Under the pieces are notes generated by a model that saw nothing but the letters and a program-made list of their open reading frames with translations, was not told the DNA's origin and made no database searches. The position numbers were made by a program, and so were the translations under genes. A DNA stretch of 43,598 bases, taken from positions 1-43,598 of the forward strand of contig JAFZMO010000086.1 of NCBI GenBank assembly GCA_017551165.1, read 5' to 3'. Shown in pieces: positions 1 to 43,598 of this stretch (positions are counted from its first letter, which is position 1; the number at the start of each line of letters is the position of its first letter). The stretch is from Lachnospiraceae bacterium (GTDB taxonomy: Bacteria > Bacillota > Clostridia > Lachnospirales > Lachnospiraceae).

Positions 1-426
1 CTTCGCGCTAAGGTTAACTGCTACGGCGCTGACTCCGTTCCGGAAGGCGTTGCGATCATGTGGAAGGAAAATGTCGACGTTTCCATCACCGGTAACTCGA
101 CCAACCCGACCCGTTTCCAGCATCCGGTTGCAGGTACCTACAAGAAGGAGCGCACCGAGGCAGGTAAGAAGTACTTCTCCGTAGCATCGGGCGGCGGTAC
201 CGGACGTACCCTTCACCCGGACAACATGGCAGCAGGTCCTGCTTCCTACGGTTTCACCGATACGCTTGGTCGTATGCACAGTGACGCTCAGTTCGCAGGC
301 TCCTCTTCCGTTCCGGCTCACGTAGAGATGATGGGTCTGATCGGTATGGGCAACAACCCGATGGTTGGTGCAACGGTTGCTGTTGCAGTTGCAATTGAGG
401 AAGCTGCTACCGCAGGTAACTTCTGA
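1..426 (+). CDS. GGGtGRT family protein, 3' part (5' end outside window)
   Basis: The frame is open from base 1 and stops at 424-426, giving about 141 residues of the C-terminal part. The diagnostic run GGGTGRT, followed by LHPDNMAAGPASYG, matches the protein family named after this motif, whose function is not known to me. The segment is glycine- and alanine-rich, with no visible membrane helix or signal. An internal ATG at 58 is not a credible start because coding continues upstream without a ribosome-binding site. Codon use (AAC, GGT, GTT) looks like that of a well-expressed gene, and a strong intrinsic terminator follows 25 bases after the stop, so this is probably the last gene of its transcript. 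I am sure of the family and unsure of any role. Confidence 0.85.
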   Translation, partial: LRAKVNCYGADSVPEGVAIMWKENVDVSITGNSTNPTRFQHPVAGTYKKERTEAGKKYFSVASGGGTGRTLHPDNMAAGPASYGFTDTLGRMHSDAQFAGSSSVPAHVEMMGLIGMGNNPMVGATVAVAVAIEEAATAGNF

Positions 427-450
427 TCCATTGAGTTGATGCAATAAAAC

Positions 451-482
451 GGAGCGCCGGCACAATGCCGACGCTCCTTTTT
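451..482 (+). terminator. Intrinsic terminator after the GGGtGRT gene
   Basis: The arms GGAGCGCCGGCA and TGCCGACGCTCC pair over 12 positions with one C/A mismatch around a CAA loop, and run into five T residues. It ends plus-strand transcription before the convergent minus-strand gene at 531. Confidence 0.9.
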
Positions 483-530
483 CATACTCAAAACAGTTTC
501 CTTTTGATATTCTTTCGCGATACGAAACTT

Positions 531-965
531 TCATTCCCGGGATTCTCTCACAGTACTCTCATTTTCCGAGCCACGGCGCCTGTGATCGACGATCACGATC
601 ACAATCCCCACTATGAAACATGCGATACTTGCGGTCGCGACGATAATTGCCAGAAGAAATAATGCGATAATGTCAGAAAAATCCGCCGAAAAATATGCGT
701 TGACCAAGATCATTGCCACTGTGAACAAGTCTAAGCCGCACGATACACCAAGCATTGTCGTGGATCTTTTATTGTGAAAAGCAAACCACATGCCGAAGAT
801 AAATGCGATCATCGATATCGCAAACAGCAAAAGCGCAAGATATCCCATCCAATCTGCACTTTTACCGCCCTGATATTCATCATAAACCCAAAGAAGAACG
901 ATGCCGGCAAAGATGAATACTGCGGTCAGGATAAACGCTGTCACCGCTTTTTTCTTCTCACCCAT
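531..965 (-). CDS. Small four-helix membrane protein, unknown function
   Basis: 144 residues. Four hydrophobic segments lie at about residues 8-29, 40-63, 69-90 and 96-127, and the tail is charged (HRRRGSENESTVRESRE). I do not recognise a family. The start at 965 is supported by GAGGAA seven bases upstream. The gene is convergent with the GGGtGRT gene and lies downstream of the beta-helix gene at 1019, separated by 53 bases in which I see no convincing promoter. A copy of the CATTTTCCG word lies in its 3' end at 560-568, coding for Ser-Glu-Asn. It could be an accessory to a transporter or a stress-linked membrane protein; nothing in the sequence decides this. Confidence 0.7.
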   Translation of the reverse strand: MGEKKKAVTAFILTAVFIFAGIVLLWVYDEYQGGKSADWMGYLALLLFAISMIAFIFGMWFAFHNKRSTTMLGVSCGLDLFTVAMILVNAYFSADFSDIIALFLLAIIVATASIACFIVGIVIVIVDHRRRGSENESTVRESRE

Positions 966-1018
966 AACAATTCCTCAATACACGGCTTCAAACCTGTACC
1001 CGTATCGTTACAAAAGAA

Positions 1019-1690: not shown

Positions 1691-1754
1691 AGTAATTATC
1701 CTCCGTTGTGTTTTGTGCGCCTGCATCGTTCAACGAACGTTGCAATTCGGCGCT

Positions 1755-1790
1755 TTATAAAACGCGCGCTACAGAAAGCTCTGCAGCGCG
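1755..1790 (-). terminator. Probable terminator after serS
   Basis: On the minus strand CGCGCT-G-CAG and CTG-T-AGCGCG form a stem around AGCTTT, followed by CGTTTTATAA. The T tract is modest, so readthrough into the beta-helix gene is possible. Confidence 0.6.
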
Positions 1791-1803
1791 GCGAATTCAT
1801 ATA

Positions 1804-3087
1804 TTACTCCGTGATCTTCTCCTGACCACCCATGTAAGGACGCAATGCCTCAGGAATACGAATGGAACCATCCGCCTGAAGGTTGTTCTCAAGGAACGCG
1901 ATCAGCATGCGCGGAGGTGCAACCACGGTATTGTTCAAGGTGTGCGCAAAATACTTGTTGCCGTTCTCGCCGACAACGCGGATCTTCAAGCGTCTTGCCT
2001 GTGCGTCACCGAGGTTCGAGCAGCTGCCCACCTCAAAGTACTTTTTCTGACGAGGAGACCATGCCTCAACGTCACAGCTCTTCACCTTGAGGTCTGCAAG
2101 GTCGCCCGAGCAGCACTCAAGCGTACGAACCGGAATGTCGAGCGTGCGGAAGAAATCAACTGTGTTCTTCCACAGTTTCTCATACCACATCATGCTGTCC
2201 TCAGGCTTGCAGACAACGATCATCTCCTGCTTCTCGAACTGATGGATGCGGTATACGCCGCGCTCCTCGATGCCGTGCGCGCCCTTCTCCTTGCGGAAGC
2301 AAGGCGAATAGCTCGTGAGCGTGTAAGGAAGCTCCGACTCCTGAAGGATCTGGTCGATGAAGCTGCCGATCATCGAGTGCTCGCTGGTACCGATCAGGTA
2401 CAGGTCCTCGCCCTCGATCTTGTACATCATGCTGTCCATCTCGGCGAAGCTCATAACACCCGTGACAACGTCACTGCGGATCATGAACGGCGGTACATAG
2501 TACGTGAAACCGCGACCGATCATAAAGTCACGCGCATAGGAAAGCACTGCGCTGTGAAGCCTTGCGATATCGCCCTTGAGGTAGTAGAAACCGTTGCCGG
2601 CAACGCGTCTTGCAGCGTCGAGGTCGATGCCGTGCAGACGCTCCATGATCTCGGTGTGATACGGGATCTCGAAATCCGGAACAACGGGCTCGCCGAAGCG
2701 CTCATTTTCCACATTTTCCGAATCGTCCTTGCCGATCGGCACGGAAGCGTCGATGATGTTCGGGATGACCATCATGCGCTTGCGGATCTCCTCCGCGTAC
2801 TCGGTCTCCTTCACCTCAAGCTCTGCAAGGTGCTCCGAGAACTCGTTCACCTGCTTCTTGAGTGCTTCCGCCTCCTCGCGCTGTCCCTTCGCCATCAGGC
2901 CGCCGATCTGCTTGCTGATGGTGTTGCGCTTGCTGCGAAGATCGTCCGCTTCCTGCTTGGCAGCACGGCTCTTCGCGTCCAGTTCGATCACTTCGTCGAC
3001 AAGGGGAAGCTTCTGATCCTGGAATTTGTTTCTGATGTTCTGCTTTACGATCTCGGGATTCTCCCGAACAAACTTAAGATCCAGCAT
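1804..3087 (-). CDS. serS: Seryl-tRNA synthetase
   Basis: 427 residues, normal length. It charges tRNA-Ser in the cytoplasm. The N-terminal tRNA-binding arm is a long coiled coil (about residues 30-110, rich in E, K, R). The class II catalytic core follows, with motif 2 around SPCFRKEKGAHGIEERGVYRIHQFEKQEM and motif 3 around NNTVVAPPRMLIAFLENN. The motif 2 loop (KEKGAHGIEERG) and the stretch DVEAWSPRQKKYFEVGSCSNLGDAQARRLKIR differ from the common bacterial form (usually SEAGSAGRDTRG and DLEVWLPGQ), suggesting the divergent SerRS type seen in some Clostridia. The start is preceded by AGAAGG. The 52-base gap to the upstream gene holds no T-box. Two GGAAAAT words overlap residues Glu-Asn-Val-Glu-Asn. 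Confidence 0.95.
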   Translation of the reverse strand: MLDLKFVRENPEIVKQNIRNKFQDQKLPLVDEVIELDAKSRAAKQEADDLRSKRNTISKQIGGLMAKGQREEAEALKKQVNEFSEHLAELEVKETEYAEEIRKRMMVIPNIIDASVPIGKDDSENVENERFGEPVVPDFEIPYHTEIMERLHGIDLDAARRVAGNGFYYLKGDIARLHSAVLSYARDFMIGRGFTYYVPPFMIRSDVVTGVMSFAEMDSMMYKIEGEDLYLIGTSEHSMIGSFIDQILQESELPYTLTSYSPCFRKEKGAHGIEERGVYRIHQFEKQEMIVVCKPEDSMMWYEKLWKNTVDFFRTLDIPVRTLECCSGDLADLKVKSCDVEAWSPRQKKYFEVGSCSNLGDAQARRLKIRVVGENGNKYFAHTLNNTVVAPPRMLIAFLENNLQADGSIRIPEALRPYMGGQEKITE

Positions 3088-3139
3088 GGTATGCCTTCTT
3101 TCCTGCGCTCTCGCGCGTTATTTCATTATGTTGCCGCGC

Positions 3140-4189
3140 TTACTGCAGCGGCGTCTGCGTTCCGCCCATGACGCCCTCGTACTTGCTCAACAGCTCGTCG
3201 ATGTCCTCCTGTGTGTTCAGCACCTGACTGAATGCGAAGGAGTACTTCTTGCCCTTGGACTCCATATAACGGTACGCGATCATGAACGTCGTCTCGTCGA
3301 AGTTCGTGAGGTACTTCTCGTTGATGCGGCGGATCGCCTGGTCGATCGTGAGATCGCCGTCGCTGCATACGTCGGAAAATACGGTGTTGAACGCATCGTA
3401 CACAATGCGCTCCTGCATCGCGAAGTCCGAGGAGATGTTCTGCTGCTGGAATGCATACAGATACACCTTCAACCACGGGTTCATCGATGCGTACCACGCG
3501 TATACCGTGTCATACTTCTGATTCATATAACAGATCTCACGCGCCCATCCGGACGAGAGATACGAGGCATCGACGATGCGCTTGATCTCGCGGTCGGTGA
3601 GGTAGAGATTGTATTTGTCACTGAACTTCTTGACGATCTTCGTGCGCTTCTTCTCCGCAGACGGAAGTCCGTAGGAGTTCGGCTTCTGATTGTTGTAGAT
3701 GCCGGAGTAATTGATCGCGTTGTTGTAGGCGTTCGTCATGTTGCGCGCCTGATCCTGGTATGACGGCGCGTTCGTGCCTGCCTGCGGTCTGGTCATGTAG
3801 CCCGTCATGTAAGGCTGACCCGCAACTCCGCCCGGGCGGGAATAGTTGGTCGCAGCATTCGGGTTCATTCCGGTGCGATAGTTATTCACGCTGCTTCCCA
3901 GAGGGGAATAGCCCGAAGCACCGCCGGTGTTCGCGCCGCGATACACATTGTTCTGTCGGTTGCTGTACATATTCCTGTTTTTACTCTCTATCTCGTCTTT
4001 CTTTGAACTCTGCGCAACGATCCAAAGGATCAGCGCAATTGGCAAAAGCCCGGTCGCCGCAAGGAAGATAACCGCAAGTAATTTGCCGCCGCCACCGCTT
4101 TGATTGCGTCTGCGGTTGTTTACGTTACCTTTCTTCAGCACCGCGGACAATATCATAAAGAAAATGATAATTCCAAATACCGATGACAT
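3140..4189 (-). CDS. Membrane-anchored protein with long low-complexity linker, unknown function
   Basis: 349 residues from the ATG at 4189 (GGAGG five bases upstream; an ATG four codons earlier lacks one). It has a short N-terminal hydrophobic segment (about residues 4-17), a basic stretch with GGGG, a second membrane segment (about 38-59, LLAVIFLAATGLLPIALILWIVA), then about 110 residues rich in Asn, Gly, Tyr, Ser and Pro. The C-terminal 150 residues are a charged, apparently helical domain (KYNLYLTDREIKRIVDAS...). I do not recognise the family. Its own promoter lies at 4233-4261, and serS follows 52 bases downstream, so the two are probably co-transcribed. The linker resembles cell-surface or division-site spacers, but that is only an analogy. 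Confidence 0.7.
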   Translation of the reverse strand: MSSVFGIIIFFMILSAVLKKGNVNNRRRNQSGGGGKLLAVIFLAATGLLPIALILWIVAQSSKKDEIESKNRNMYSNRQNNVYRGANTGGASGYSPLGSSVNNYRTGMNPNAATNYSRPGGVAGQPYMTGYMTRPQAGTNAPSYQDQARNMTNAYNNAINYSGIYNNQKPNSYGLPSAEKKRTKIVKKFSDKYNLYLTDREIKRIVDASYLSSGWAREICYMNQKYDTVYAWYASMNPWLKVYLYAFQQQNISSDFAMQERIVYDAFNTVFSDVCSDGDLTIDQAIRRINEKYLTNFDETTFMIAYRYMESKGKKYSFAFSQVLNTQEDIDELLSKYEGVMGGTQTPLQ

Positions 4190-4232
4190 TAAAACCTCCA
4201 CACAGCATAATGCCGAGAAAAATCTTCAAATT

Positions 4233-4261
4233 ATTATACTATAACTCGCGCCGTTTCGCAA
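4233..4261 (-). promoter_or_regulatory. Sigma-A promoter upstream of the 349-residue gene and serS
   Basis: On the minus strand TTGCGA, 17 bases, TATAAT. The -10 is at 4233-4238 and the -35 at 4256-4261, leaving a leader of about 35 bases. Confidence 0.8.
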
Positions 4262-4303
4262 CATTCGCGCGCAAATTCCGTTCGGGAACCTCCATGAACA
4301 TGT

Positions 4304-5080
4304 TCAGTCGTTATTTCCCTCCACAAGTTCGCGGTACGACATCGTGCCGCCGAACAGATCGAGTGCGCTTCCCACCGTATAGTCCAGCCGTCCCTTGCTG
4401 AGCTCGCGGAACGTCTCGATCGCCGCCCACGTGTGCAGTCCGCCCGCGTACGTCACAGGGTTTCCGTCATAGTCCGCGATCATCGACACAAGGTCCGCCT
4501 CCATGCCGTTGCGTTTGCCCTCGGAGTCCACGCCGTGGATGAGGAATTCCGCGCAGAACGGCTCCAGCATCTTGAGAAGCTCCGGTGTCACCGCAAGCTT
4601 CGTAAAATGTTGCCACCGGTCCGTCACGACCACATAACTGTCGTACTGCCTGCGGCAGCTGAGGTCGATCACGATATGCTCTCGTCCGACCGTGTCCGCG
4701 AGCTTGAACAGCCGGTCGGTACAAAACTCTCCGTCCTTGAACAAATACGTTGTTACGATGACATGTGAAGCACCCTTCTCGAGGAACATGGGGGCATTTT
4801 TCGCGGTGACACCACCGCCGATCTGAAGACCGCCGGGATACGCCGCGAGCGCCTGAAGTCCCTGCTCGAGCGTCTGTTCATAGTACGGAGTGTCCTTCTT
4901 GTTGAGGAGGATCACATGACCGCCCGTAAGGCCGTCCCTGCGATACATGTCGGCATAGTAAGCGGCCGTCCGGTCCGAGACAAAATTCTCGTCCGCACGG
5001 TTGCCGGCGTCCTGCAGGCTTCCACCCACGATCTGCTTGACTCGTCCGTTGTGAATGTCGATGCAAGGTCTGAATTTCAT
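4304..5080 (-). CDS. hisA: Phosphoribosylformimino-AICAR-P isomerase, eukaryotic-type HisA
   Basis: 258 residues. The fourth step of histidine synthesis: it isomerises ProFAR to PRFAR. The N-terminus MKFRPCIDIHNGRVKQIVGGSL, the phosphate loops LQIGGGVTAKNA and VTYAGGLHTWAAIE, and the insert around RRQYDSYVVVTDRWQHFT match the fungal/plant HIS6-like form rather than the usual bacterial HisA. The TIM-barrel acid Asp in CIDIHNG is present. No other his gene is nearby: it is the last gene of the nnr - corC-like - rlmH operon, 20 bases after rlmH, with its own strong GGGGAG ribosome-binding site. Either the pathway is scattered in this organism or a second, standard HisA exists elsewhere. Confidence 0.88.
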   Translation of the reverse strand: MKFRPCIDIHNGRVKQIVGGSLQDAGNRADENFVSDRTAAYYADMYRRDGLTGGHVILLNKKDTPYYEQTLEQGLQALAAYPGGLQIGGGVTAKNAPMFLEKGASHVIVTTYLFKDGEFCTDRLFKLADTVGREHIVIDLSCRRQYDSYVVVTDRWQHFTKLAVTPELLKMLEPFCAEFLIHGVDSEGKRNGMEADLVSMIADYDGNPVTYAGGLHTWAAIETFRELSKGRLDYTVGSALDLFGGTMSYRELVEGNND

Positions 5081-5100
5081 GGTCTCCCCTAACTTTCACT

Positions 5101-5580: not shown

Positions 5581-5583
5581 GGA

Positions 5584-6456: not shown

Positions 6457-6489
6457 GTTTTCTTATTTCCGTTCCTTTCTCATACGCGC

Positions 6490-8263: not shown

Positions 8264-8273
8264 TGTAAACGGC

Positions 8274-8302
8274 TTGCATTTTCCGCGGTTTCATTGTATA
8301 GT
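8274..8302 (+). promoter_or_regulatory. Sigma-A promoter of the ABC-F gene, overlapping a CATTTTCCG word
   Basis: TTGCAT at 8274-8279, 17 bases, TATAGT at 8297-8302. The word CATTTTCCG (8277-8285) covers the end of the -35 and the start of the spacer. The leader is only about 24 bases, leaving no room for an attenuator. Confidence 0.8.
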
Positions 8303-11123: not shown

Positions 11124-11131
11124 TGTATACA
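11124..11131. promoter_or_regulatory. TGTATACA palindrome in the gntR leader (possible operator)
   Basis: An 8-bp perfect palindrome identical to the one overlapping the -10 box at 11189-11196, 65 bases away. Short GTATAC-centred palindromes are typical targets of FCD-type GntR proteins. Confidence 0.5.
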
Positions 11132-11133
11132 TT

Positions 11134-11149
11134 TTCCGACCGGTCGGAA
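11134..11149. repeat. 16-bp perfect palindrome in the gntR leader
   Basis: TTCCGACCGGTCGGAA reads identically on both strands. It sits in the untranslated leader between promoter and start codon, next to a CATTTTCCG word (11130-11138). It could be a protein-binding site rather than a hairpin, as it has no loop. Confidence 0.7.
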
Positions 11150-11248: not shown

Positions 11249-12217
11249 CTATTCCGTTTCAAGTTCCCCTCTCCTGAGCTTATCGCCGTCCTCGTAATAG
11301 TACTTAACCTCCTGTGTTATGTACTCCGGCTCCTTTCCTTCCTCCGTAAAATCCGGTAGGCGATCCTTGGTGATGGAAACGTAGTCTCTCCGAACGGGAA
11401 CATCTTTAAAAAACCTGCTTTGATCATAAGCGAACGTCCATTTCCAGCGGCGGTCCTGATTATAGATCTTGAAGCCGTTTTGGAAAATTTCATTGTTGTT
11501 GAGGTACCACAGCAGGCACAAAGCCGGCGTTGTCTGCTCTTCCGTCGGCTCGTACAGAAGGATCCGGAAATTCTCAAGCATATTCATGTCCATCATGACA
11601 ACTTCAAAACCGCCGATACGGAAATCACCTTTTGTCAGAAGATAACTGCTGTCCCCCTCCAGCGCCTGTGCCGCCTCGTAAGGGTACATGTTCTCAAGCC
11701 AGCCTTCATCGTGACGGATCTTTATATTCACGTTCCCATTTAAATTCTCCGACCAATTCAGATAGGATGCGTTGTATTTCCATGCGAAACTGTTCACTTT
11801 GCTTTCGGATTGCTCATCTGCGGAACCGCGGAACAATTGATACATTGCCCACTCCCGCATGTGCTCCTTTATCTCATCACTTTTTTCATTGATAAAAAAC
11901 TGTCCGCTGTCCGCAAAATACACAAAATTGTATGTGACCTCTCCGCGCTTGATCGTTCCGCGAAACTCGTCTCCCAGTGCCCTTGTACTGAACTCACTGG
12001 GCTCCGACGGCATTTTCAAATCACTGACCACGGCCTCCGGATCATTTTCCGGGATCCACTTCTCGATAAACGCATTATACTTCGCAGTGTACTCGCTCCA
12101 CAGCTCCTTTTCCTTCACAACGACCGATTCCGGCTTGTTCTTGCAGCTGACGAGCATCATGCATGCCGCGATGCAAAACATAAGAACGAGCTTGCGATAC
12201 AACCTTCTCCTGTTCAT
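11249..12217 (-). CDS. Predicted lipoprotein, unknown function
   Basis: 322 residues from the ATG at 12217, preceded by GGGGGA. The N-terminus MNRRRLYRKLVLMFCIAACMMLVSC is a lipoprotein signal: positive n-region, hydrophobic core, lipobox LVSC with the modified Cys at about residue 25. The mature part is hydrophilic and rich in Glu, Tyr, Trp and Asn, with no repeat or recognised domain. It should be anchored on the outer face of the membrane. It follows the hydroxyacid dehydrogenase by 47 bases and may be co-transcribed with it. The gene is exactly bounded by two inverted 27-bp repeats (11215-11241, 12242-12268), which suggests it arrived as a unit. Mobility is inference; no transposase is present. 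Confidence 0.8.
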   Translation of the reverse strand: MNRRRLYRKLVLMFCIAACMMLVSCKNKPESVVVKEKELWSEYTAKYNAFIEKWIPENDPEAVVSDLKMPSEPSEFSTRALGDEFRGTIKRGEVTYNFVYFADSGQFFINEKSDEIKEHMREWAMYQLFRGSADEQSESKVNSFAWKYNASYLNWSENLNGNVNIKIRHDEGWLENMYPYEAAQALEGDSSYLLTKGDFRIGGFEVVMMDMNMLENFRILLYEPTEEQTTPALCLLWYLNNNEIFQNGFKIYNQDRRWKWTFAYDQSRFFKDVPVRRDYVSITKDRLPDFTEEGKEPEYITQEVKYYYEDGDKLRRGELETE

Positions 12218-13265: not shown

Positions 13266-14708
13266 CTACACATAGATGCATATTTTGATCCAATAACCAT
13301 CGATCTCTTTCTTCGGTTCCGTCTCTTTCACCTTCTGCGGGAACTCCGAATTTAAATTCGTAAACCAGGCGATCCGTGCTACCCTTGTGTAGTTCTCCGT
13401 TATCTTGAAATCCTCTTTCGACTCTAGGAATTTCGCTGCGGAATCGCTCAGACCGATCGTCCCCATAACCTCGGTGAATCGCGCAAGATCCTCGTCTTTA
13501 AATACCGTCTCACGCGCAGGGATCTCGATATCCGAATACCCAAGCTCATTCCATGTGCCGCCGATGCAGTCGAACGCCTTAAAGTAATACGCTTTATATG
13601 TTTTCCCGTAGTGGTATGTGATCTTTCTGTAAATACCGATCACCGTTTTTCCGTCAAACTCGCGGAACAGGACCTCCGCGTCGCCTTCGTTGCCGATCGC
13701 AATCTCCCGGTAGATCAGCCTCTCGGAGATCTTCCGTACGCCTTCCGCATCCGAGCGAAACAACTCCGCCATCAGACCGGTCTCATGGTACGACGGATCC
13801 GCTTCGAAGGGTTTCTTGAAGCTGCGCAAAAGCAAAGCCTCGATCCACGTCCTGTCCGTATCGTCATTGGCCTTGGGCTGCGTGAATCGTCCCAGCCTGT
13901 ATGAGATGATCCCCTCGGTCATGCTGCTCTCGCTGTAGCTGAAGCTTTCCGGCCCGTCGGAAATGTAATGCACCTCGTAAACTGTGGGTTCGCATTTGCC
14001 GTACTGCGGGAACACCGTATTGTTGAGGTAATCTTGCAGTCTCTTCGCATAATTCGGAAAATGTTTATCGTACTCCCCGTAGAAAAGCGCATCCCAGCTT
14101 ACTCTCGCAACACCGAAGCCGTCCGGCCATGCCATATAGCCACCGGCACTGATCTTTCTTCCGTTACCGTCCCGAAAGCTGAAAGAAAAGCTGTCTCCGT
14201 CCATCACGCCCTCTGCATGACCGTTAAAGCCATCCCAGTCGTCAGCATTACTTGCGTTTAGGATCATCTCCAGATGATCCGCGAATTCGTTGCTCACTTC
14301 AAACACCGGGGCATCCTTAAGATCGACTCCGCTCAGGCGAACCTGTGCGTACGTCTTCGTCTTATCATCGTTCTTCCAAGCACGGTATGTCACGCCGGAG
14401 CGGAACATCATGCCGCTGGTGGAATACTCAAAGCTCCAGACGGAGTTTATTTTCCTCATCGCCTCATCGAACCCTACCGTCACCTTGCCGTTCATGATGT
14501 CTTGCATCCCCAACATCCCCAACATTCCGAACGGGGGTACGCCGGGAAACTCCGGCGACTGCGAAGGCGTCGGAACGGTGTCAGATGTTACACGCCGGTC
14601 CATCTCCTTCGGATCTTCATTCGAAACGTTCCCCTCGAGCCGGCTGCCGCACTCCGGGCAAAACTTCGAGGTTCCTTCAAGCTTATAGCCGCATGTTAAA
14701 CAATACAT
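13266..14708 (-). CDS. Zinc-ribbon domain protein of unknown function
   Basis: 480 residues. The N-terminus MYCLTCGYKLEGTSKFCPECGSRLEG is a CxxC...CxxC zinc ribbon. A Pro/Ser-rich hinge (about 30-60) is followed by a long region without recognised domain, rich in Trp, Tyr and Phe in beta-strand-like patterns (SVWSFEYSTSGMMFRSGVTYRAWKNDDKTKTYAQVRLSG). No membrane helix is visible, so it is probably cytosolic. It appears to be the first gene of a unit with the hydroxyacid dehydrogenase and the lipoprotein, with a promoter at 14744-14772. Many Clostridia carry such ribbon-plus-unknown proteins; I can give no function. Confidence 0.75.
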   Translation of the reverse strand: MYCLTCGYKLEGTSKFCPECGSRLEGNVSNEDPKEMDRRVTSDTVPTPSQSPEFPGVPPFGMLGMLGMQDIMNGKVTVGFDEAMRKINSVWSFEYSTSGMMFRSGVTYRAWKNDDKTKTYAQVRLSGVDLKDAPVFEVSNEFADHLEMILNASNADDWDGFNGHAEGVMDGDSFSFSFRDGNGRKISAGGYMAWPDGFGVARVSWDALFYGEYDKHFPNYAKRLQDYLNNTVFPQYGKCEPTVYEVHYISDGPESFSYSESSMTEGIISYRLGRFTQPKANDDTDRTWIEALLLRSFKKPFEADPSYHETGLMAELFRSDAEGVRKISERLIYREIAIGNEGDAEVLFREFDGKTVIGIYRKITYHYGKTYKAYYFKAFDCIGGTWNELGYSDIEIPARETVFKDEDLARFTEVMGTIGLSDSAAKFLESKEDFKITENYTRVARIAWFTNLNSEFPQKVKETEPKKEIDGYWIKICIYV

Positions 14709-15333: not shown

Positions 15334-15378
15334 TCCGGTGATCGTATTCTTCCGACATACAATGCGGAAAATGAAAAC

Positions 15379-17987: not shown

Positions 17988-18019
17988 TACTTTCGGTGTT
18001 TCGATTCGCATTTTCCGCA

Positions 18020-21258: not shown

Positions 21259-21951
21259 TTATTCGGAAAATGATATGTCATCCGGAAGGAACTCTCCCAC
21301 CAAAAGGAGGGTTCCTTTTTTTGCGCTCACCGTCGTTTCCTCCGCTGTGAAGGAGTTGCTCACGCCGAGCGCAAAATCCTCGGTCAATGCTCCGTCAGTC
21401 AGTTCGTATTTGCCGCCGCGGATCGTCACGCCTTCAGCGCCCTCGCCGGTTGCAAACACGCTGAAGGTTTTGCCCTTCACACCGCGAATCGTAGCAGTCC
21501 CTGCAAATACTGTCGAGCACATCGAAGGGCTTATCAGAAATCCGTGTCCGCCCTTCTTCGCAATGTGAAGAAGAAGCGACAGATTGGCGATTGTGTGGTC
21601 CATTCTTCCGCCGGTCCCGCCGTAGATGACGAACTCGCAGTATCCTCTCGTAAAACCCTCCGCAACCGCGATCCCGGTGTCGGTGTCATCCTTCTCTACA
21701 GGGTAACGAAGAACCTCCGTCGTCTTTCCGTCTACGTCTTTACGAGAAAGAAGGAATTCTTCGATCCGATTGTGTTGTTCCGGCAACGAATCGAAATCTC
21801 CGAGGATCACATCGGGCTTCACAAACGAAAGCTCCTCTGCTATCCACGTCAGTCCGCCGTCCGCCGCGATCACAAGATCGCCGTCCTGCGGTATTCGAAT
21901 CCGATCCGCGGGAATGCGCTCACCCGCGCCGATGATCATGCAAACTCCCAT
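21259..21951 (-). CDS. thiN: Thiamine pyrophosphokinase
   Basis: 230 residues. It transfers pyrophosphate from ATP to thiamine, making the TPP that the adjacent riboswitch senses. The N-terminal Rossmann-like domain has DLVIAADGGLTWIAEE and PDVILGDFDSLPE; DDTDTGIAVAEGF and YGGTGGRMDHTIANLSLL complete the active site. The C-terminal beta domain binds thiamine. It starts 11 bases after recJ, so it is the second gene of a recJ-thiN unit, and is convergent with thiT with only 23 bases between stops. The last 20 codons contain the plus-strand terminator of thiT (21286-21322), so that coding stretch carries two functions. Confidence 0.94.
   Translation of the reverse strand: MGVCMIIGAGERIPADRIRIPQDGDLVIAADGGLTWIAEELSFVKPDVILGDFDSLPEQHNRIEEFLLSRKDVDGKTTEVLRYPVEKDDTDTGIAVAEGFTRGYCEFVIYGGTGGRMDHTIANLSLLLHIAKKGGHGFLISPSMCSTVFAGTATIRGVKGKTFSVFATGEGAEGVTIRGGKYELTDGALTEDFALGVSNSFTAEETTVSAKKGTLLLVGEFLPDDISFSE
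21286..21322 (+). terminator. thiT terminator embedded in the 3' coding end of thiN
   Basis: AAGGAAC-T-CTCC and GGAG-G-GTTCCTT pair around CACCAAAA, followed by seven T. It lies about 50 bases after the thiT stop and inside the convergent thiN gene, where it encodes KKGTLLLVGEFL on the other strand. Confidence 0.85.
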
Positions 21952-21962: not shown

Positions 21963-23711
21963 CTACGGAAACCGATACCCTTCCAAGCGGATCTCAACGC
22001 TGCTTCGCCCATTGTACGTGTTGATCTTCGGCGAATACAGTATCGTTACTGTCATGCGCTTCCCTCGACCGATCGTAAGCGCTGCGCCCTTACCGTACGC
22101 TTGCTCGAGGTCCGCCATGAAATCGTCCGCCAGGTCAAACGAAACGCCGCGCACCGTCGTTCCCGACGCATCCCGCAGCTGCAACGCAAGCACCTTGCCG
22201 CTCGCTCCGACTCTTCCCGCGCTTACGATCTCCGCGTTTCGGAGTGCAAAGCACGGCTGTCGGTTTCCCTTGCCAAACGGTCCTAACAACTCCAGTTCCT
22301 CAACGAGCGTTGTGCTCAGCTCCGAGAACGGCACCTCAAGGTCGATCTTGCGCTCTCTGCGAAGGGACGCCCCCTGCGCCTTAAACTCCTCCGCCATCGC
22401 CGCGCGGAACTCATCGAGCTTCACGGGTTCGATGGAGAGGCCTGCCGCCATCGGATGTCCGCCGTACTTGACGAACAGATCCGAATGCCGGTTCATCGCG
22501 TCGATCATGGAAAATGTCTCCGTGCTCCGTCCGGATCCCTTCAACAGATTGCTTTCTCCGGCCGCATCCGTAAGAAGGAACGTCGGGCGGTTCCATGCTT
22601 CGCGGATCTTGCCGCACACGATGCCGGCGATACTCTCATGGCATCCGGGCAGGTGAAGCACGATCACGGTCTCGTCGGGGTTCTCGGCAATTCTCTCATC
22701 GACGATGCGGAGTGCTTCCTTCGCGTAGAAGTCCGACTGCTCTCTGCGGCGAAGATTGACTTCAACCATTCGGCTTGCGTACTCCTGACGGAGCGATTCG
22801 TCTGCACTCAGCAACAGTTCCACGCCGTAGTCTGCCGTGTCGAGTCGTCCGAGAGCGTTGATGCACGGTCCGAGTACAAATCCGAAATGGTATGCGCTGG
22901 CAGGCTCGGTGAGACCGTTCGCGATGAACAATGCACGAAGGCCTGCGTTCCATCGCTCGACCGGCTTCAACAAACCTTTTTGTATAATATCGCGCGCGTA
23001 ACCGTTCATGTCCATGACATCGCAGATCGTTGCGATCGCAAGTATCTCGATCATACGCTCGCAGTAGCCCGTCATGCCCTCTGAGGCGAGCAGTGCGTCC
23101 GCGAGAAGTCCCGCCACAACGGCTCCGCACAGGTTTTCATAGCGGTAAACTCCCTGTTCGGTCTTCGGATCGACCGTGCAGTCGGTCAACGGCAGAGTTT
23201 CCTGAGGATCGTGGTGGTCTGTGACGACGATGCGTAAGCCCAGCTCCTTTGCAAGAGCACACTGCTTCACGGCGGCGATGCCGTTGTCCACCGTGACGAT
23301 CATGCGTACATTTTCCGAGAGAGCCTGACGCACCATCTCCTCCGAGATGCCGTAGCCGTCCGCAACGCGGTCCGGAATGCGGTAGTCAACCTCCGCCCCG
23401 AGCATGCGAAGCGCGGTCACCATCAGGTACGTGGCGGTCACACCGTCCACATCATAGTCGCCGATCACACGGAATTTGCCGCCCTCTGCGATAGCCTCCC
23501 GCATCACGCGCACGAAGTCATCCGTGCCCGTCAGTCTCGGCCAACGGTCCTCCTCACTGCCGTAGAGATACGCGCCGACTTCCTCCTCGGTACGGTACCC
23601 GCGGCTCCACAGGATGCGCGCACAAATGTTGGTGATGCCGAATCTCTGCATCAAAAAGGATACGTCGCCGGAACGCCAGGTCCCCGTCCAGTCTTCCTCG
23701 TACCGCCTCAT
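21963..23711 (-). CDS. recJ: Single-stranded-DNA-specific exonuclease RecJ
   Basis: 582 residues from the ATG at 23711 (GGAGG six bases upstream; a TTG six codons earlier overlaps that site). It is a 5'-3' single-strand exonuclease for recombination and repair. DHH-family motifs: GDYDVDG at 84-90, TDHHD at 164-168, then DHHA1 with KYGGHPMAAGLSIE and a C-terminal OB-like domain (EELELLGPFGKGNRQPCFALRNAEI). It follows secDF, as in many Clostridia, but a terminator separates them, and the next gene is thiN rather than the apt/relA I would expect. Confidence 0.95.
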   Translation of the reverse strand: MRRYEEDWTGTWRSGDVSFLMQRFGITNICARILWSRGYRTEEEVGAYLYGSEEDRWPRLTGTDDFVRVMREAIAEGGKFRVIGDYDVDGVTATYLMVTALRMLGAEVDYRIPDRVADGYGISEEMVRQALSENVRMIVTVDNGIAAVKQCALAKELGLRIVVTDHHDPQETLPLTDCTVDPKTEQGVYRYENLCGAVVAGLLADALLASEGMTGYCERMIEILAIATICDVMDMNGYARDIIQKGLLKPVERWNAGLRALFIANGLTEPASAYHFGFVLGPCINALGRLDTADYGVELLLSADESLRQEYASRMVEVNLRRREQSDFYAKEALRIVDERIAENPDETVIVLHLPGCHESIAGIVCGKIREAWNRPTFLLTDAAGESNLLKGSGRSTETFSMIDAMNRHSDLFVKYGGHPMAAGLSIEPVKLDEFRAAMAEEFKAQGASLRRERKIDLEVPFSELSTTLVEELELLGPFGKGNRQPCFALRNAEIVSAGRVGASGKVLALQLRDASGTTVRGVSFDLADDFMADLEQAYGKGAALTIGRGKRMTVTILYSPKINTYNGRSSVEIRLEGYRFP

Positions 23712-27164: not shown

Positions 27165-27208
27165 TCGCGCCGCCTGTGAAGCACATTTTCCGAATACCGA
27201 AGACACAA

Positions 27209-27930: not shown

Positions 27931-28998
27931 CTACTGGCGTTGACGGAGCATTTCCCACTCTCGGACCTCTGCCGGCATGATCCTTCGGCGCATCATCCGC
28001 TCGGCGATCAATACACAATCCCCCTCTGCGTCGGGATACTCCCTCTGCATCAGCCACTCGCCGATATAACGGATGCTGCGGATCGTCTCAACCTCGTGCG
28101 CTCCGGAGTTCCCTTCCATATACACGACACGTGATATCTCCTCATCGTCGAACCGTTTGATCATGTCGTTCTTCCACCTGCGGTAGTCCGATACCGGCGT
28201 GCCCGAAGGCCCTGCTGATGAGCAGTATTCCGCAGCGTCCTCGGCGACTGTCGGAGACAAACGCCACAGGTTTCCGCACACCTCATTGTAACAGTCGAGG
28301 TAATCCAGTCCCCGCCCCTCCTCCAAATACTTGCGCAGGATCCTCGTCATCGGCAGATAACAGCACCGCATCGTATGCTTCGGCGCATAGGTGCGAAGGA
28401 GCTTGAGAAGCGCCTCCGGTGAGCCCTGCGTTCCGTAGAACACGAAGAAACATTTTCCGACCATCGAGCGATACATATCGTAGAACTCCATAAACGCATC
28501 CTTCGTAGCCGGCAGACACACGACAACGATCTTCGCCCGATCGAGCATCGTCACCGTCGTGTCGTTGTTGTTCGGCTCGAGATTGAGGAACACATCGTCG
28601 TACTGTTCCTCCAGAAAATCCAACTGCTGATCCAGCACCTCACTCATCACATACCGATATGCTTCCCCGTGCAGGCTCTGGTTCATCGGCATAAACCAAA
28701 GCCCGTTTTGATCCGCGCGGATCACCGAACCGTACTGACAGCTGCGCCCCATTTCATAGCAGATCTGCCGCACGAACAATTCCCCTGCCCGGTAACTTAC
28801 CTCGCTCTCCCGTTTTGTGGACTTCTTGAGTACATCATACCGACTCCCCAACAAGTGAAACCCCAGATTGCGCACATGCACATAATTCTCTACGCAGGCG
28901 ATACTGCAGGGGAACTGCCGGCAGCACATGCCGGCGACCAGCGCAAGAATTTCCGGCGTCTCCTCTCGATAATGAGGCGACCAAAAAGCCGTTACCAT
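27931..28998 (-). CDS. Degenerate MinD/ParA-like protein lacking the Walker A motif
   Basis: 355 residues from the ATG at 28998 (GGAGG eight bases upstream; a TTG eight codons earlier overlaps the site). MVTAFWSPHYREETPEILALVAGMCC has the place and hydrophobic strand of a ParA/MinD deviant Walker A (normally SPKGGSGKTT) but no glycine-rich loop and no lysine. YDDVFLNLEPNNNDTTVTMLDRAKIVVVCLPATKDAFMEFYD then resembles the ParA Walker B strand and switch segment, and CFFVFYGTQGSPEAL the next strand. I infer a pseudo-ATPase of the TadZ/CpaE/MinD type. The last 100 residues are charged and helical. The promoter is at 29059-29087. No pilus or partition genes are near. Family placement rests on pattern alone. 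Confidence 0.5.
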   Translation of the reverse strand: MVTAFWSPHYREETPEILALVAGMCCRQFPCSIACVENYVHVRNLGFHLLGSRYDVLKKSTKRESEVSYRAGELFVRQICYEMGRSCQYGSVIRADQNGLWFMPMNQSLHGEAYRYVMSEVLDQQLDFLEEQYDDVFLNLEPNNNDTTVTMLDRAKIVVVCLPATKDAFMEFYDMYRSMVGKCFFVFYGTQGSPEALLKLLRTYAPKHTMRCCYLPMTRILRKYLEEGRGLDYLDCYNEVCGNLWRLSPTVAEDAAEYCSSAGPSGTPVSDYRRWKNDMIKRFDDEEISRVVYMEGNSGAHEVETIRSIRYIGEWLMQREYPDAEGDCVLIAERMMRRRIMPAEVREWEMLRQRQ

Positions 28999-29058: not shown

Positions 29059-29087
29059 ATTATAGAGTCGGAAAATGACCTGTGCAA
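29059..29087 (-). promoter_or_regulatory. Sigma-A promoter of the MinD-like gene, with CGGAAAATG in its spacer
   Basis: On the minus strand TTGCAC (29082-29087), 17 bases, TATAAT (29059-29064). The word CGGAAAATG (29069-29077 on the plus strand) fills the middle of the spacer. Confidence 0.8.
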
Positions 29088-30849: not shown

Positions 30850-32335
30850 ACACACACTCCCCGGCCTTCAAGCCGAATTTGTCGAGAAACAGCTCATAAA
30901 AGTCCGCGTTTGGCTTGAAACGAACCTCGCGGCCGGACACGATGTAGCCGTCCATCAACCGCAAAAAAGGCATCGACTTGCTCTCGTGAAGAGCAAACAG
31001 TTCCTTCGGATAGTTTGTGAGCGCATACACGCGATAACCCTGTTCCTTCAGGGAGACAAGCAATTCCTCCGTGTCCGGGAACGGCTCAATGAGCTGTTCA
31101 ACCTTCGCAAAATACCTTCGCACCGCATCGGCGTAACGAGGGTCTTTTTTTGACCAGATCGCGATCGCGTCCTCCTGCGAGAGAACGCCCTCGTCCATCT
31201 TCTGCCACTCCGCCTTCAGCATCACGTTATCCATAATGAATTTGATCTCATCGGGCGTGAATCCGTTGTCCCTCATGTACTCCTCCGGGCGCAGCCGGAT
31301 CAGCACGCCGCCGAGGTCAAACACGACCGCCTTGATCGGACAGCGATCGTGGTCGTTGATCATACTCATACACATCATCTCCATCTCATCGATACAATGT
31401 TGCGGGCTCAGAAGCCGCACAGAATTGCCGAGCGCAAGAAGCCACCCGAAGAAGAACCGGTTCGGCACTACGGAAAATGACAGCTCCAGCCCGTTCTCTT
31501 TCTTCATCACCGTGATATCCCTGCCGATCTTGTCGACAAATGTTCCGAGCATCTCCGCAGGGCAGCTCACGCGGACGCGCTCCTGCACGCCGTCAAACAT
31601 CTCAAACCTCGCCTGTGCGTACAGGTCCGGTCTCGTCTTCTCCGCAGCCTCGCGGCCCTCGCGGGGCACCTCCGAGAGCGTCACATCGCGCATCTTGTCC
31701 ACGCGGTACGTTCGCATGCTCTTCCTCGCGCCGTCGTACGCACCGAGGTAATAATTCTCATTGTTGTATACAAGCCACCACGGGCTGATCCCCGTGCGCA
31801 CCTTCTGTTCGCGGGGCACAAGCTGAAGCTTTGTATCCCACTGCAGATACGTAAACGCGATCTGTCGGTTTTCCCGGATCGCCGTCTGGATCGCATCGAC
31901 ATTCGAGTAGCCGTCATCGTCATCCTCCAGCGCATGCTTTCGAATGTACACACTTCGGTTCAGCTCACGCCTCTCCTTGGCACTCACCATTCGCTCAAGC
32001 TTGCGGATCAGCTCCTGTGAGCGCTTCTCCGTGACAAACTTCGAAGCGGCGATGACGTCCGCCAAGATCTTGATGTCCGCGAGCGTCAGCATCCGGTCAT
32101 CGGCATAGTAGTACACCTGCGCATCGCGTCGGTATTTCCTGATCGTCATGTACTCGCCGAACTCGTTGATCGCATTGATGTCTCGGTAAATACTCTTCCT
32201 CTCCGCGGCGATCCCGTACTCATCGAGCCTGTCGATCAACTCGGGCATCGTGATCCCGTCGTCGCGCGAGGTGCACTCCGACAGGATCTTCATGATGTAG
32301 CACAGCTTCAGTTTTTGGTTGTCCGAACGGCTCAT
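30722..32335 (-). CDS. Fusion: HTH-WYL transcriptional regulator plus HAD-superfamily hydrolase
   Basis: 537 residues in one open frame. Residues 1-75 form a DeoR-like winged helix (LCYIMKILSECTSRDDGITMPELIDRLDEYGIAAERKSIYRDINAIN); 155-220 a WYL domain (AFTYLQW...PWWLVYNNENYYLGAYDGARKSMRTYRVDKM); about 250-315 a WCX-type extension. After a short linker (MEMMCMSMINDHDRCP), 334-537 is a HAD subfamily IA hydrolase with nucleophile Asp340 in VVFDLGGVL, a Thr in YALTNYPKEL, Lys in RFKPNADFYE and the acidic CVFIDDRDDN. GGAG nine bases before the codon for Met323 could also start a separate HAD product. WYL domains bind ligands or nucleic acid; the HAD might act on that ligand. Downstream of the membrane-protein gene, after a terminator. 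Confidence 0.88.
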   Translation of the reverse strand: MSRSDNQKLKLCYIMKILSECTSRDDGITMPELIDRLDEYGIAAERKSIYRDINAINEFGEYMTIRKYRRDAQVYYYADDRMLTLADIKILADVIAASKFVTEKRSQELIRKLERMVSAKERRELNRSVYIRKHALEDDDDGYSNVDAIQTAIRENRQIAFTYLQWDTKLQLVPREQKVRTGISPWWLVYNNENYYLGAYDGARKSMRTYRVDKMRDVTLSEVPREGREAAEKTRPDLYAQARFEMFDGVQERVRVSCPAEMLGTFVDKIGRDITVMKKENGLELSFSVVPNRFFFGWLLALGNSVRLLSPQHCIDEMEMMCMSMINDHDRCPIKAVVFDLGGVLIRLRPEEYMRDNGFTPDEIKFIMDNVMLKAEWQKMDEGVLSQEDAIAIWSKKDPRYADAVRRYFAKVEQLIEPFPDTEELLVSLKEQGYRVYALTNYPKELFALHESKSMPFLRLMDGYIVSGREVRFKPNADFYELFLDKFGLKAGECVFIDDRDDNIQAAQALGMHAVSARNRDLGVAELKAFLAVHPPA

Positions 32336-33348: not shown

Positions 33349-33439
33349 GCAAAAAAAGCACAAGTAACGAGTTTTCAACGATCATTTTCCGAAGCGAAAG
33401 CATCCCACTGCCGCAGGTGTATCCGGATGCGGAAAACAG

Positions 33440-37039: not shown

Positions 37040-37057
37040 TCCGAATCACATGAATAC

Positions 37058-37093: not shown

Positions 37094-37125
37094 ATGTTAT
37101 CAAATTGGAGAAATCGGTCTCCGGA

Positions 37126-40100
37126 TCAGATATCGTACTTCGCCAGAATCTGACTCGGCGTCTTTCGAAGCAATAAGAACACAGGGATCATACCGCACAC
37201 GATCGAAACCGTGTATAGGAAGACAAGCACGATCACCGCCATCCACGCAGGATAATACAGGTATTCTCCGACCATACTTCCCTTTGTGGAAAGATACCAG
37301 ATCACAAGGCTTCCGCAGATGTAACCGATTATAACACTCAGTGTTGCGATCACACCGGTCTCCACGACGAAACGGAACAGAACATTTTTCTTGGTCACAC
37401 CGATCGCACGGTAGATACCGATCTCTTTCGTTCGGTTCAAAAACGTTGAGCGCATGATGAAATACATGCAAATACACATCAGACCAAGCATGATACCTCC
37501 GACCGCAAGCATACGTACTGCTGTTTTCCAGATACCTTCCGTAGCTTCCCGGTAACGATCATCCGGCGTGTAGATCGCGGAATACACATATCCGTCATTG
37601 CCATACGTGCCACGTTCCTTACCCGGCGCCTCGAGTCCGACCAGCACCCTCTTCAACGCATTTTCCGTCGCCTCAATATTGTTCGAATGTACTGTGTAAT
37701 ACAGCTTCTCAGCAGTATTGTACATGTTAAACAAAGTCCCTTGTTTTGCTCCGTTTATGGTATCCCCGGGATAGGTAACCATCTCCGTTGATTCGAACGG
37801 TTCGTACCGTCCGGTTCTTCCATAATGAACTGACTCATCAGCAGAAAGGCACAAGCTCGTTTTTCCCATCCAGTTTGCACCTGTGATGAAATCCTCACGG
37901 CTCATCACAACAACCTTATTGTACTTGTCAAGCATACCGATCGGGTAAATCTCTACGTCATCCTTCTTATCTTTGTCAATGTTTCCGTATTCATCCTCGT
38001 AAAACGTTCCCCATTCGTCGTAATAGCCTCCGTAGTGGATTTCGATGTGCTCAGCGCGAAGATGCTCGTTACATTCAAAGATCTTCGAATACGTCTCATT
38101 GATAATCGTCTCGTCGAATGCCATTCCCAACGGCAACTCGAAATCGATGATCTTCTTTACAAGGAGTTTCATTCCGTTGTAGTAAATGTAATCCCCCTCC
38201 TTGACGCCTTCCCTGTCCTTGCGTTCCATTTCCAGCTGCTCTTGCTGTAGACTGCGATAGTAATCATCCAAAGGATCATTATTACTATCATCGATCGGGT
38301 ACTCCGGCGTATCCGTCAAGACCGGCACCGGATCATCCGGGTTGTCCCCATTCTCAGGGTTGTCCTGCCCATCGGGATTTTCCTGACTCTCAGGGTTGTC
38401 ACGATTCTCGGGATCGCTCTGATCCTCCGGATCATCCCCTTGTTGCGAATTTAAATAATCCTCATAACTTTCCGCATAGTTATCATACGGCTTATAACCC
38501 TCGGGGTAGTCCATTTCCACGAAATACTTGCGCAGCAGCACACACTCTCCGGGTCCGACATCAAAGTATCCGTCAAGGTCATCGGAAACGTTCGGCAGAA
38601 TATCTCGCATTTCCACCTGCAGCACGGCTCTCGTGTAATCGTTGACATATGCGGAAATCTCCTTGGTATCCACGATACCGACCACCTTCAACTTTTGCTT
38701 TGTACTGCCGATATTGACTTGAAGCCCGATAAAATCCGAATAGTCGTCGAAGTAATTGAACGGGGGATCCTTAAGGATCAGTTTCACAACAGCCTTGGAA
38801 ATGAGCACATCTCCATCCGCCAGTTCTCCGGTACCCGCGATCACCTCAAGTCCTTTCGCCAACTTTTCAGGGAGCAGCGTCACATTTTCCGAGATAAAAT
38901 TATTCGGCTCCAGCCCCTCGTCGTAGTACCCTGTGGATTCAAATCTGGCGAGACCGAAACGAAGGGAAAGGTCGCTGCAACTCCCACGCAAAATATTTCC
39001 GATACCGATGTCATCGATCCCGTTTGCCGGGTCATTCATCAACTCAATGAGCTGATCACGGATATCCTCCGTCAGTGCGCTGACCAGGAAAGTCTCGTTG
39101 TTATACGTTTTTTTTGCCTTGAGAAGATTGCCGATACCGGTTCCGAACAGCGCAAAGAAAAACACGATCGCGGCTCCGAACAAGGCAAGGCACACGCGCA
39201 GACGTTTTTTGCCCTTGGACTGCATCATCATCTTGAAATTATCGCGGTAACCGCTGATCACAGACGACTTTAAACTGAACCTCTTTCCGTAATTGCTGCC
39301 CTCGAACGGAGGAAGCTTACTCATATCCACGCTGGCTTCCTTGCGGCGCTGCTCCTCGTTCTCCTGAAACTTGCCCTCGCGGATATGCACCTCACTGCTC
39401 TCATCGATGACAGAAACCTTAGGAGTGTTCAATTGTAAGAAGAATCTTCCGTTCTGGTTGATCACCGTGATCCTGATCGGTGTCTCCGGCGCATCGCCGT
39501 AGTACGTCACCTCGGTATTGCCGTCATTTTGCACATGCTGATCCAGCTCTCCGAGGAAAATGTCATTCTTGTTTCTCGCAACGTATCCGTTGGCGGAATC
39601 ATTCTTGCGGACTTCGACAACCTGACCGTCCTTGAGCTCGATCACCATGTCGCAGTAGTAATCGACAAGGTTCGCCTCGTGCGTTACGATCAGCACAAGG
39701 TGATCCTTCGACATCTCCTTCAGGATATCCATGACGAGGATCGTGTTGGCCTCATCAAGGTTACCGGTAGGCTCGTCCGCAAGGATTACCGGAGGATTCT
39801 TGACGATGGCGCGGGCGATCGCCACACGCTGCTGCTGACCTCCGGACAACGTGTCCGGAAGACGCTTCGCATAATTCTCCATGCCCACGTTCGCGAGAGC
39901 AGCCTTTACTCGCTCCTCAATAACCGACTCGTCCTTCATGCCGCACAGGCGAAGGGACGCCGCCACATTTTCGTATACGGACTCTCTCTTATTCAGATTG
40001 TAATTTTGGAAAATAAACCCGATGTCCCGGTTTCGAACAACAGCGTTCTCGCCGTCCTTCACCGTCATCTGACCGCCGTTGATCTCCACGAAACCGTTCG

Positions 40101-42686: not shown

Positions 42687-42721
42687 AATGCCTGTTCCTC
42701 CCCCTTGTGTTTCTATATCCT

Positions 42722-42796
42722 CCGCCGGAATCGGCGGTCGGTACCTCTGTGATTCTTGCTTGCCGCTACAGCGGTTGTTCCGCTACAGCGGTTGTT
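42722..42796. repeat. Intercistronic hairpins, including a 17-bp tandem duplication
   Basis: CCGCCG-GAAT-CGGCGG (42722-42737) is a strong perfect hairpin. The unit CCGCTACAGCGGTTGTT occurs twice in perfect tandem (42763-42779, 42780-42796), each containing a CCGC-TACA-GCGG mini-hairpin. They lie between the partial permease gene and the 804-residue gene, with no T tract, so they may tune processing or stability of the operon transcript. Confidence 0.8.
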
Positions 42797-42809
42797 GTTC
42801 TTCCTCCCG

Positions 42810-43598
42810 TCAGATATCATACTTCGCGAGAATATCGCTCGGCGTCTTTCGCAGCAGCGTGATGACCGGGAGAACGCCGCACACGACTCCGCTGATCAAC
42901 AAAAATGCGAACAGCGAGATCGCCATCCATAACGGATACCCGAACATCATCACGTATGAGGACGCCTTGTTCGAGATCCATGTGACAAATATACTCATGA
43001 GCAGGAATCCGATCCCCGCGCTCATTAATACGACCACGCAGGACTCCACAGCAAACCGGAAGATCACATTTTTCTTCGATGTTCCGATAGCTCGATAGAT
43101 GCCGATCTCGCGGATGCGGTTCATCACGGACGCACGCATGACAAGATACATGCAGACGCAGGTGAACGCTAAGAACAATCCGAGCACGATCAACTGCAGG
43201 ACCATCTGATCCTTGATCTCCCTAAACCGCTCGTTGAACAGATCGTTGGGCGTGATCACGCCGCTTGCGACCTCCACACCATTATCCCGCTTCACGTTGA
43301 TATCCGAAAAATGAGCCTTCAGATATTCGAGCGTCTTATCCGGGTCCGTCGAATGAAGCCGGTAGTACTTCCTCACATCGCGGTCGTTCTGCCACGGCAG
43401 TTCCGTCACATCCTTCTTCTCCGCATCGTACGCCGAAGCACTTCTGGTATTGGCTTGCGTGATCCACACGCTCGTCTGCGCGATCCTTGTGCTTCCCTCC
43501 TTGAAATCCTCGGTGTTTACAACGATGTACCGCTCCGTGTTCCAGTATCTCTCGCCGGTGTATTCATACGTGCCGCAGATTCTCGGGAAAGCCTCCGC
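42810..43598 (-). CDS. FtsX/MacB-type ABC permease, C-terminal part (5' end outside window)
   Basis: The frame is open to the window edge, so about 262 C-terminal residues are visible; a GTG at 43469 is internal, since coding continues upstream (AEAFPRICGTYEYTGERYWNTERYIVVNTEDF...). The extracellular end is followed by three helices: QLIVLGLFLAFTCVCMYLVMRA, VVVLMSAGIGFLLMSIFVTWI and PLWMAISLFAFLLISGVVCGVLPVITLL, ending RKTPSDILAKYDI. It is closely similar to the C-terminus of the 1049-residue protein ([29 protein letters not shown] against [29 protein letters not shown]), indicating duplication. Whether an ATPase is fused at the missing N-terminus is unknown. It is the upstream member of the three-gene ABC operon. 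Confidence 0.88.
   Translation of the reverse strand, partial: AEAFPRICGTYEYTGERYWNTERYIVVNTEDFKEGSTRIAQTSVWITQANTRSASAYDAEKKDVTELPWQNDRDVRKYYRLHSTDPDKTLEYLKAHFSDINVKRDNGVEVASGVITPNDLFNERFREIKDQMVLQLIVLGLFLAFTCVCMYLVMRASVMNRIREIGIYRAIGTSKKNVIFRFAVESCVVVLMSAGIGFLLMSIFVTWISNKASSYVMMFGYPLWMAISLFAFLLISGVVCGVLPVITLLRKTPSDILAKYDI

Follow-up and report, generated by a model that had tools for sequence, protein, structure and literature searches.

Strong sequence preference in DNA uptake is ascribed to two bacterial families, both of them Gram-negative (PMC7811141). The DNA uptake sequence (DUS) of the Neisseriaceae, whose receptor is ComP, is a non-palindromic word of about 10 bases that occurs in great excess and varies as dialects around a short fixed core, following phylogeny (PMC3630211). 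The uptake signal sequence (USS) of the Pasteurellaceae has a strict core and a weak AT-rich flank, and its spacing in H. influenzae is given as about 1,000 bp (PMC7811141). In cyanobacteria, the word HIP1 recurs across the genome and has been linked to orphan methyltransferases (PMC4390886). The 9-base word SEQ1, written here as CGGAAAATG, recurs throughout a stretch of 43,598 nucleotides (the window) from a clostridial host. The window is contig 59 of genome G000, which comprises 2.54 Mb in 160 contigs with a completeness of 91 and a contamination of 7.7. This genome is that of an uncultured Lachnospiraceae of ruminants: the leucyl-tRNA synthetase (LeuRS) encoded at 15436-17871 of the window has matches of 89-97% in five named records of the family, four of which, going by their titles, come from rumen or omasum.

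The first-pass annotation of this DNA had counted by hand 17 copies of CGGAAAATG, 27 of the 8-mer CGGAAAAT and about 44 of the 7-mer GGAAAAT, split about evenly between the strands. Our recount returned 17, 27 and 45, with plus/minus splits of 5/12, 12/15 and 21/24, respectively; 0.52 copies of CGGAAAATG are expected in the window, and the maximum in 100 shuffles was 2. As placed by our own simple gene caller, 11 of the 17 copies lie in genes and 6 are intergenic. Eight genic copies are on the minus strand, at 560..568, 2712..2720 (in gene 1804-3087, serS by reading of its translation), 11130..11138, 12043..12051, 23309..23317, 28451..28459, 37659..37667, and 38883..38891; the other three, at 14055..14063, 21264..21272 (at the 3' end of its gene), and 31471..31479, are on the plus strand within genes of the opposite strand. 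The intergenic copies fall between divergent genes at 8277..8285 and 33383..33391 (both minus), between convergent genes at 15365..15373 (plus) and 27184..27192 (minus), and between tandem genes at 18009..18017 (minus) and 29069..29077 (plus).

Genome-wide, CGGAAAATG occurs 808 times (382 plus, 426 minus), compared with 4 copies of the reversed word (2 on each strand). In 348,455 bases of G000, made up of the window and 20 further stretches, 110 copies were observed against 7.3 expected from an order-3 Markov model, and GGAAAAT, GGAAAATG, and CGGAAAATG rank first in the 7-, 8-, and 9-mer lists with z scores of 32-40. The best letter-unrelated 7-mer among those listed, CTTGCCG, reaches a z score of only 9.5 vs 32.5 for GGAAAAT, and each of the listed 8- and 9-mers overlaps either the word itself or a variant that differs from it by a single base. 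The palindrome TTTTCGAAAA, which partly overlaps the word, is also in excess (22 vs 0.9). The annotation had cautioned that a genome-wide count near expectation, or an equal excess of many other A-rich words, would reduce the observation to composition; the excess instead goes well beyond composition and is massive, as it is for words of the DUS and USS type.

In G000 the word's profile reads as a T-rich stretch followed by C, G, a tolerant base, AAAAT, and then G or A. AAAT is its strictest part, and the second G is tolerant. Single-base changes of CGGAAAATG were counted in 866 kb from ten genomes: when the T or any of the final three A's is replaced, counts fall to background level or beneath it, whereas a 1.4-3.4-fold excess remains for the first G or first A, and a 4-11-fold excess for the C and for the second and last G. 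The flanks had been described as unrelated, which is not entirely right: there is a weak T-rich stretch upstream, and G is avoided downstream. One-base variants at the four strict AAAT positions total 117, compared with 146-194 expected depending on the model. Mutated relics are thus not piling up at these positions, and we rejected a reading of the copies as decaying relics; under a pure drift-and-drive model, more such variants might have been foreseen. One DUS dialect gains 21% more copies if one mismatch is allowed (PMC3630211).

Comparison with related genomes, as the annotation had proposed, showed the word to be enriched in most of the genus and to change between its species. CGGAAAATG is enriched in 18 of 21 congeners, with 212-1060 copies each, and the reversed word occurs 0-22 times per strand in the 21. 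The word-poor species are G006, G017, and G015, with 63, 73, and 96 copies, respectively. The form CGGCAAATG has 445 copies in G013, 431 in G007, and 354 in G016, compared with 116 in G000 and with 41 in both G006 and G017, and AAATGCGG has 1015 in G012 vs 95-285 in the other 21 genus genomes. G015 is partly above background for both (276 vs 70 reversed for AAATGCGG, 143 vs 41 for CGGCAAATG). When profiles were fitted to stretches of the genomes, ten of these gave CGGAAAATG, while G007, G013, G018, G004, and G008 gave forms of CGGMAAATG or GGMAAATG, G016 gave GGAAAATGC, G001 YGGMAAATGYSA, and G012 KGmAAATGCGG; the profiles of G003, G008, G013, G016, and G020 are rough (18-37 kb each), and G021 lay outside the profile set. 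Because the fits were seeded with GGMAAATG, some motif was returned in every genome. In word-poor G006, G017, and G015 they found 13, 18, and 6 sites, compared with 0-3 in permuted controls, and the densities of 0.16-0.23 per kb are the lowest of all, the next lowest being G004 at 0.29 per kb.

A LeuRS tree, to which dialect labels were added by hand, places the CGGAAAATG species in one group that includes the mixed-dialect G007 (support 85/99), G008, G013, G016, and G018 together (97/97), and G001 with G021 in a third group (94/96). The three word-poor species form a separate clade with very distant LeuRS (100/100). By the program's rule, two of these forks count as firm, the one at 97/97 and the one at 100/100. 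The LeuRS of G017, G006, and G015 (L127, L128, and L129) are only 47-49% identical to that of G000, which suggests either replacement or a deep split; because LeuRS may have been replaced there, the depth of this clade is unsure. On these sequences the dialects appear largely to track phylogeny around a fixed AAAT core, as uptake words do, with G007 as the exception and with moderate tree support.

Placement was analyzed in 13 genomes out of the 22 of the genus, each selected for having one clear word (i.e., all but G004, G008, G013, G016, G018, G021, and word-poor G006, G015, and G017), with loci under 3 kb skipped. Of 456 copies, 331 lie in 1,033 kb of genes and 111 in about 112 kb of intergenic DNA, and 14 at edges were set aside; the densities are 0.32 and 0.99 per kb, respectively, or roughly threefold higher between genes. 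Corrected for composition, the excess is higher between genes in 12 of the 13 genomes and lower in G012, a bias shared with uptake words. Copies within genes show no orientation to them (174 with the gene vs 157 against). Intergenic density is 1.46 per kb between divergent, 1.0 between convergent, and 0.9 between tandem genes, so neither promoters nor terminators dominate. A terminator role was not adopted either, since intergenic copies are shifted only slightly toward upstream stop codons: of 51 copies, 14 lie no more than 40 bp from a stop and 9 no more than 40 bp from a start, with no clear terminator position. Among pairs less than 40 bp apart in the 13 genomes, 14 are inverted and 1 is direct; G002 and G007 share the locus of one inverted pair, which leaves 13 inverted pairs that are independent. 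Within 45 bp of 100 non-genic copies from ten genomes, TTTTCC (inverted) was found 32 times and GGAAAA (direct) 12 times, with about 5.6 expected of each; the numbers around 213 genic copies are 16 and 3, with about 12 expected of each. Loose copies in G000 (365 in 372 kb) have a mean gap of 980 bp and a CV of 0.86; the annotation had put the 7-mer at about one per kb.

Individual copies turn over. Among 53 copies of G000 words that could be aligned in ten congeners, and which are not independent, 8 are unchanged, and identity is 0.63 in the word vs 0.67 beside it; only 3 of 14 control 9-mers had aligned copies, 7 in all, too few to judge. With so few unchanged, copies are not kept one by one, though density is. 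In ten genomes, 37 windows of 2 kb with GC more than 5 points below that of the genome hold 14 copies (0.14-0.21 per kb), compared with 0.37-0.40 per kb in the other 380 windows. The word is about half as dense in low-GC DNA, which is no more than a proxy for recent acquisition; uptake words are rarer in recently acquired DNA.

The annotation had also pointed to competence genes as a check. G000 carries genes for PilB and PilT at L248 and for ComEA at L249 (names from family matches), and its ComEC gene lies on the ComEA contig. ComEA and T2SSE-family ATPases are present in all 22 genus genomes, a full-length PilB-type match in 17, and ComEC in 20, the two exceptions (G020 and G021) being fragmentary. 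Pilin motifs were matched in 17 of the 22 genomes, with exactly five in 15 of these 17; none was matched in G000, whose contig ends inside pilT, or in G010, G013, G020, and G021. By gene matches the genus thus has the type IV pilus and ComEA/ComEC machinery of an uptake system. Word-poor G006, G015, and G017, however, each have matches to T2SSE-family ATPases, pilins, ComEA, and ComEC, so the presence of these genes does not discriminate, and we rejected presence or absence of ComEC, ComEA, PilB-type ATPases or pilins as the cause of word abundance. Genes of competence type, ComEA among them, are present, but without a link to abundance. The main ComEA matches share 38-60% identity with the G000 protein (77% for one 66-residue fragment), and for the main LeuRS matches of word-bearing species the figure is 80-97%. 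Secreted proteins often evolve fast, and we would not take this divergence as coevolution with the dialects. Eleven of the 22 ComEA proteins were readable, none from a word-poor species, and these show an ordinary arrangement of SLBB and helix-hairpin-helix domains (named by reading) with no added domain. Two ComEC matches are split, which may reflect decay or assembly error: the G016 match (contig 57, 53707-54488) falls into two pieces that contain stop codons, and the G015 match (contig 63, 24535-25331) into two that contain none. A second type IV pilus-like locus lies in G012 (L243:133-7452), with pilins, a prepilin peptidase, PilM/N/O-like proteins, PilB, and PilC by reading, and this genome has 14 pilin motif matches vs 5 in 15 congeners.

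Beyond the genus, GGMAAATG is at least eightfold more frequent than its reversed pattern in 5 of 248 genomes (G253, G184, G134, G278, and G118), at ratios of 8-19 vs about 1-5 elsewhere in the family, both judged by eye. Stretches of G134, G253, G278, and G184 contain only weak words, and those of seven other genera (G022-G025, G033, G034, and G036) contain no comparable word. Other words are over-represented in places. The HIP1 word GCGATCGC occurs 12 times vs 1.1 expected in 60 kb of G025 (L058-L060) and 8 times vs 1.3 in 20 kb of G278 (L253). A second repeated word, CCTCAGCCTT, occurs 11 times vs 0.1 in 53 kb of G005 (L075, L076, L225) and 8 times vs 0.2 in 100 kb of G011 (L045-L048, L226), both of which also have an excess of CCTCGGCCTT. 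GTGGTACTA / TAGTACCAC is over-represented in G001 (8 vs 0.2; L041-L044, L230, L240-L242) and G004 (7 vs 0.1; L073, L074, L107, L232).

That some sequence-reading protein drives the word is, in our judgment, very likely. There is hardly any chance that composition, codon usage, or a ribosome-binding or start artefact produces it: AGGAAAATG does resemble, by reading, a Shine-Dalgarno sequence with a start codon, and this may partly explain milder excesses elsewhere (e.g., 10 vs 1.3 copies of AGGAAAATG in G134), but the word stands 15-fold above an order-3 Markov expectation with its reversal almost missing, and it is nearly equal on both gene strands and present in all three frames. The dismissal of a KOPS-like signal for lack of strand skew was well founded. 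Among 44 loci of ten genomes (at least 9 kb, GC skew above 0.02), we assigned leading and lagging strands by GC skew and counted 168 leading vs 119 lagging copies (raw p 0.0045), a ratio of 1.41 where composition alone gives 1.26-1.37 under order 2-4 models and 1.82 under order 1. Strand composition accounts for the raw excess, and a polar signal of the KOPS kind, which would show strong strand skew, was rejected; the occurrence in both orientations without polarity is as in uptake words. The same ratio bears on a Chi site for the AddAB helicase-nuclease, at which the cell would protect its own broken DNA and promote its recombination. Chi words differ between species, and a short non-palindromic word with hundreds of copies, in genes as well, would suit one. 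Chi sites are oriented and enriched on the leading strand, and the lack of bias beyond composition, the preferences on both flanks, and the intergenic enrichment and inverted over direct neighbours, which are unexpected of a word read on one strand, make this reading improbable.

We consider it similarly unlikely that the word is the target of an orphan DNA methyltransferase: HIP1 would be the precedent (PMC4390886), but it is a poor analogue of a non-palindromic word that has degenerate flanks and changes by single bases from one sister species to the next. Rather doubtful, though with more in its favor, is a set of binding sites for a chromosome-organising or nucleoid protein, Noc-like or some other abundant DNA-binding protein, whose specificity drifts. 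A non-polar word with degenerate flanks and an A-tract core suits a bound duplex, the spacing is a bit more even than random (CV 0.86), and in two pairs two overlapping inverted copies form ATTTTCCGGAAAAT, two symmetric bases off the B. subtilis Noc site. However, with 331 of 456 copies genic and only 15 close pairs, most copies are lone non-palindromic words, and a half site of the Noc type is at odds with the AAATGCGG dialect; we know of no nucleoid protein that enriches a 9-mer 15-fold genome-wide. The G000 profile resembles the right half of the CodY box, but a CodY-type site was rejected because the tolerant position is wrong and the G012 dialect does not fit. AAATGTGA, embedded in YGGMAAATGYSA of G001, resembles a CRP site.

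On the best explanation of these sequences, CGGAAAATG would be one local form of a DNA recognition word that runs through the genus, its AAAT core staying fixed while the flanks evolve. By analogy, it is quite possible, and our tentative preference, that this word serves self-recognition in uptake and that its reader is the type IV pilus/ComEA machinery. A surface receptor of that machinery, either a minor type IV pilin or ComEA, would prefer duplex DNA bearing the word, and fragments taken up would recombine into the chromosome. The preference would thereby spread copies until gene function limits further gain, and as the taste of the receptor drifts, the word of the genome would drift with it, giving dialects. 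The drift, non-polarity, core, dialects by clade, intergenic bias, inverted neighbours, spacing near 1 kb, and low-GC dilution all resemble the behavior of uptake words. To our knowledge nothing else combines these features. Against uptake stand the machinery genes of the word-poor species, the missing pilin match in G000, the ordinary ComEA domains, the turnover of single copies, and the restriction of described uptake words to two Gram-negative families. The annotation's preference for an uptake-like or protein-binding word is in part supported by non-polarity, intergenic placement, inverted neighbours, the 980-bp gap, and dialects, but uptake itself is putative and the genes are non-discriminating. 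Methylation-based uptake preference is reportedly found in Campylobacter. Among the papers listed by our literature search, none deals with such words for the Lachnospiraceae or the Clostridia, and none of the papers searched contains CGGAAAATG as a whole word.

More speculatively still, this may be a clostridial uptake code that arose separately from those of the Neisseriaceae and Pasteurellaceae. At least four dialects within the genus would then hinder gene exchange in the ruminant gut, and milder signs of kindred words would extend to further genera of the Lachnospiraceae. The rumen, with its wealth of free DNA, would suit such a system. If so, frequent natural transformation in ruminant Lachnospiraceae would be implied, and several dialects with a word-poor sister clade would offer a natural experiment on the coevolution of DNA receptors and genomes. 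Should the protein that reads the word prove to be something other than an uptake receptor, a drifting genome-wide word would still give a direct handle on a new DNA-binding system.

Set beside the known systems, CGGAAAATG resembles HIP1 in being a genome-wide repeat whose abundance varies between species. HIP1 is palindromic and methyltransferase-linked, however, whereas the word here is non-palindromic and its flanks drift. Like the USS, it has a strict core with a weak AT-rich flank and loose copies about 1 kb apart (PMC7811141), but it occurs in another phylum, its T-rich side lies upstream rather than downstream, and the CGGAAAATG dialect is without GCGG. The G012 dialect AAATGCGGT is one base off the Hin-USS AAGTGCGGT (PMC12616744), a resemblance that is likely due to chance. 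The likeness to the DUS extends to length, non-palindromy, great excess, and dialects, and the five Neisseriaceae genomes without an obvious word recall the word-poor clade here (PMC3630211). The 808 copies in G000 are fewer than the 2245-5918 of the DUS dialects compared here (PMC3630211). Where the DUS dialects share the core CTG and are read by ComP, those described here share AAAT, in a clostridial host whose receptor is a candidate only.
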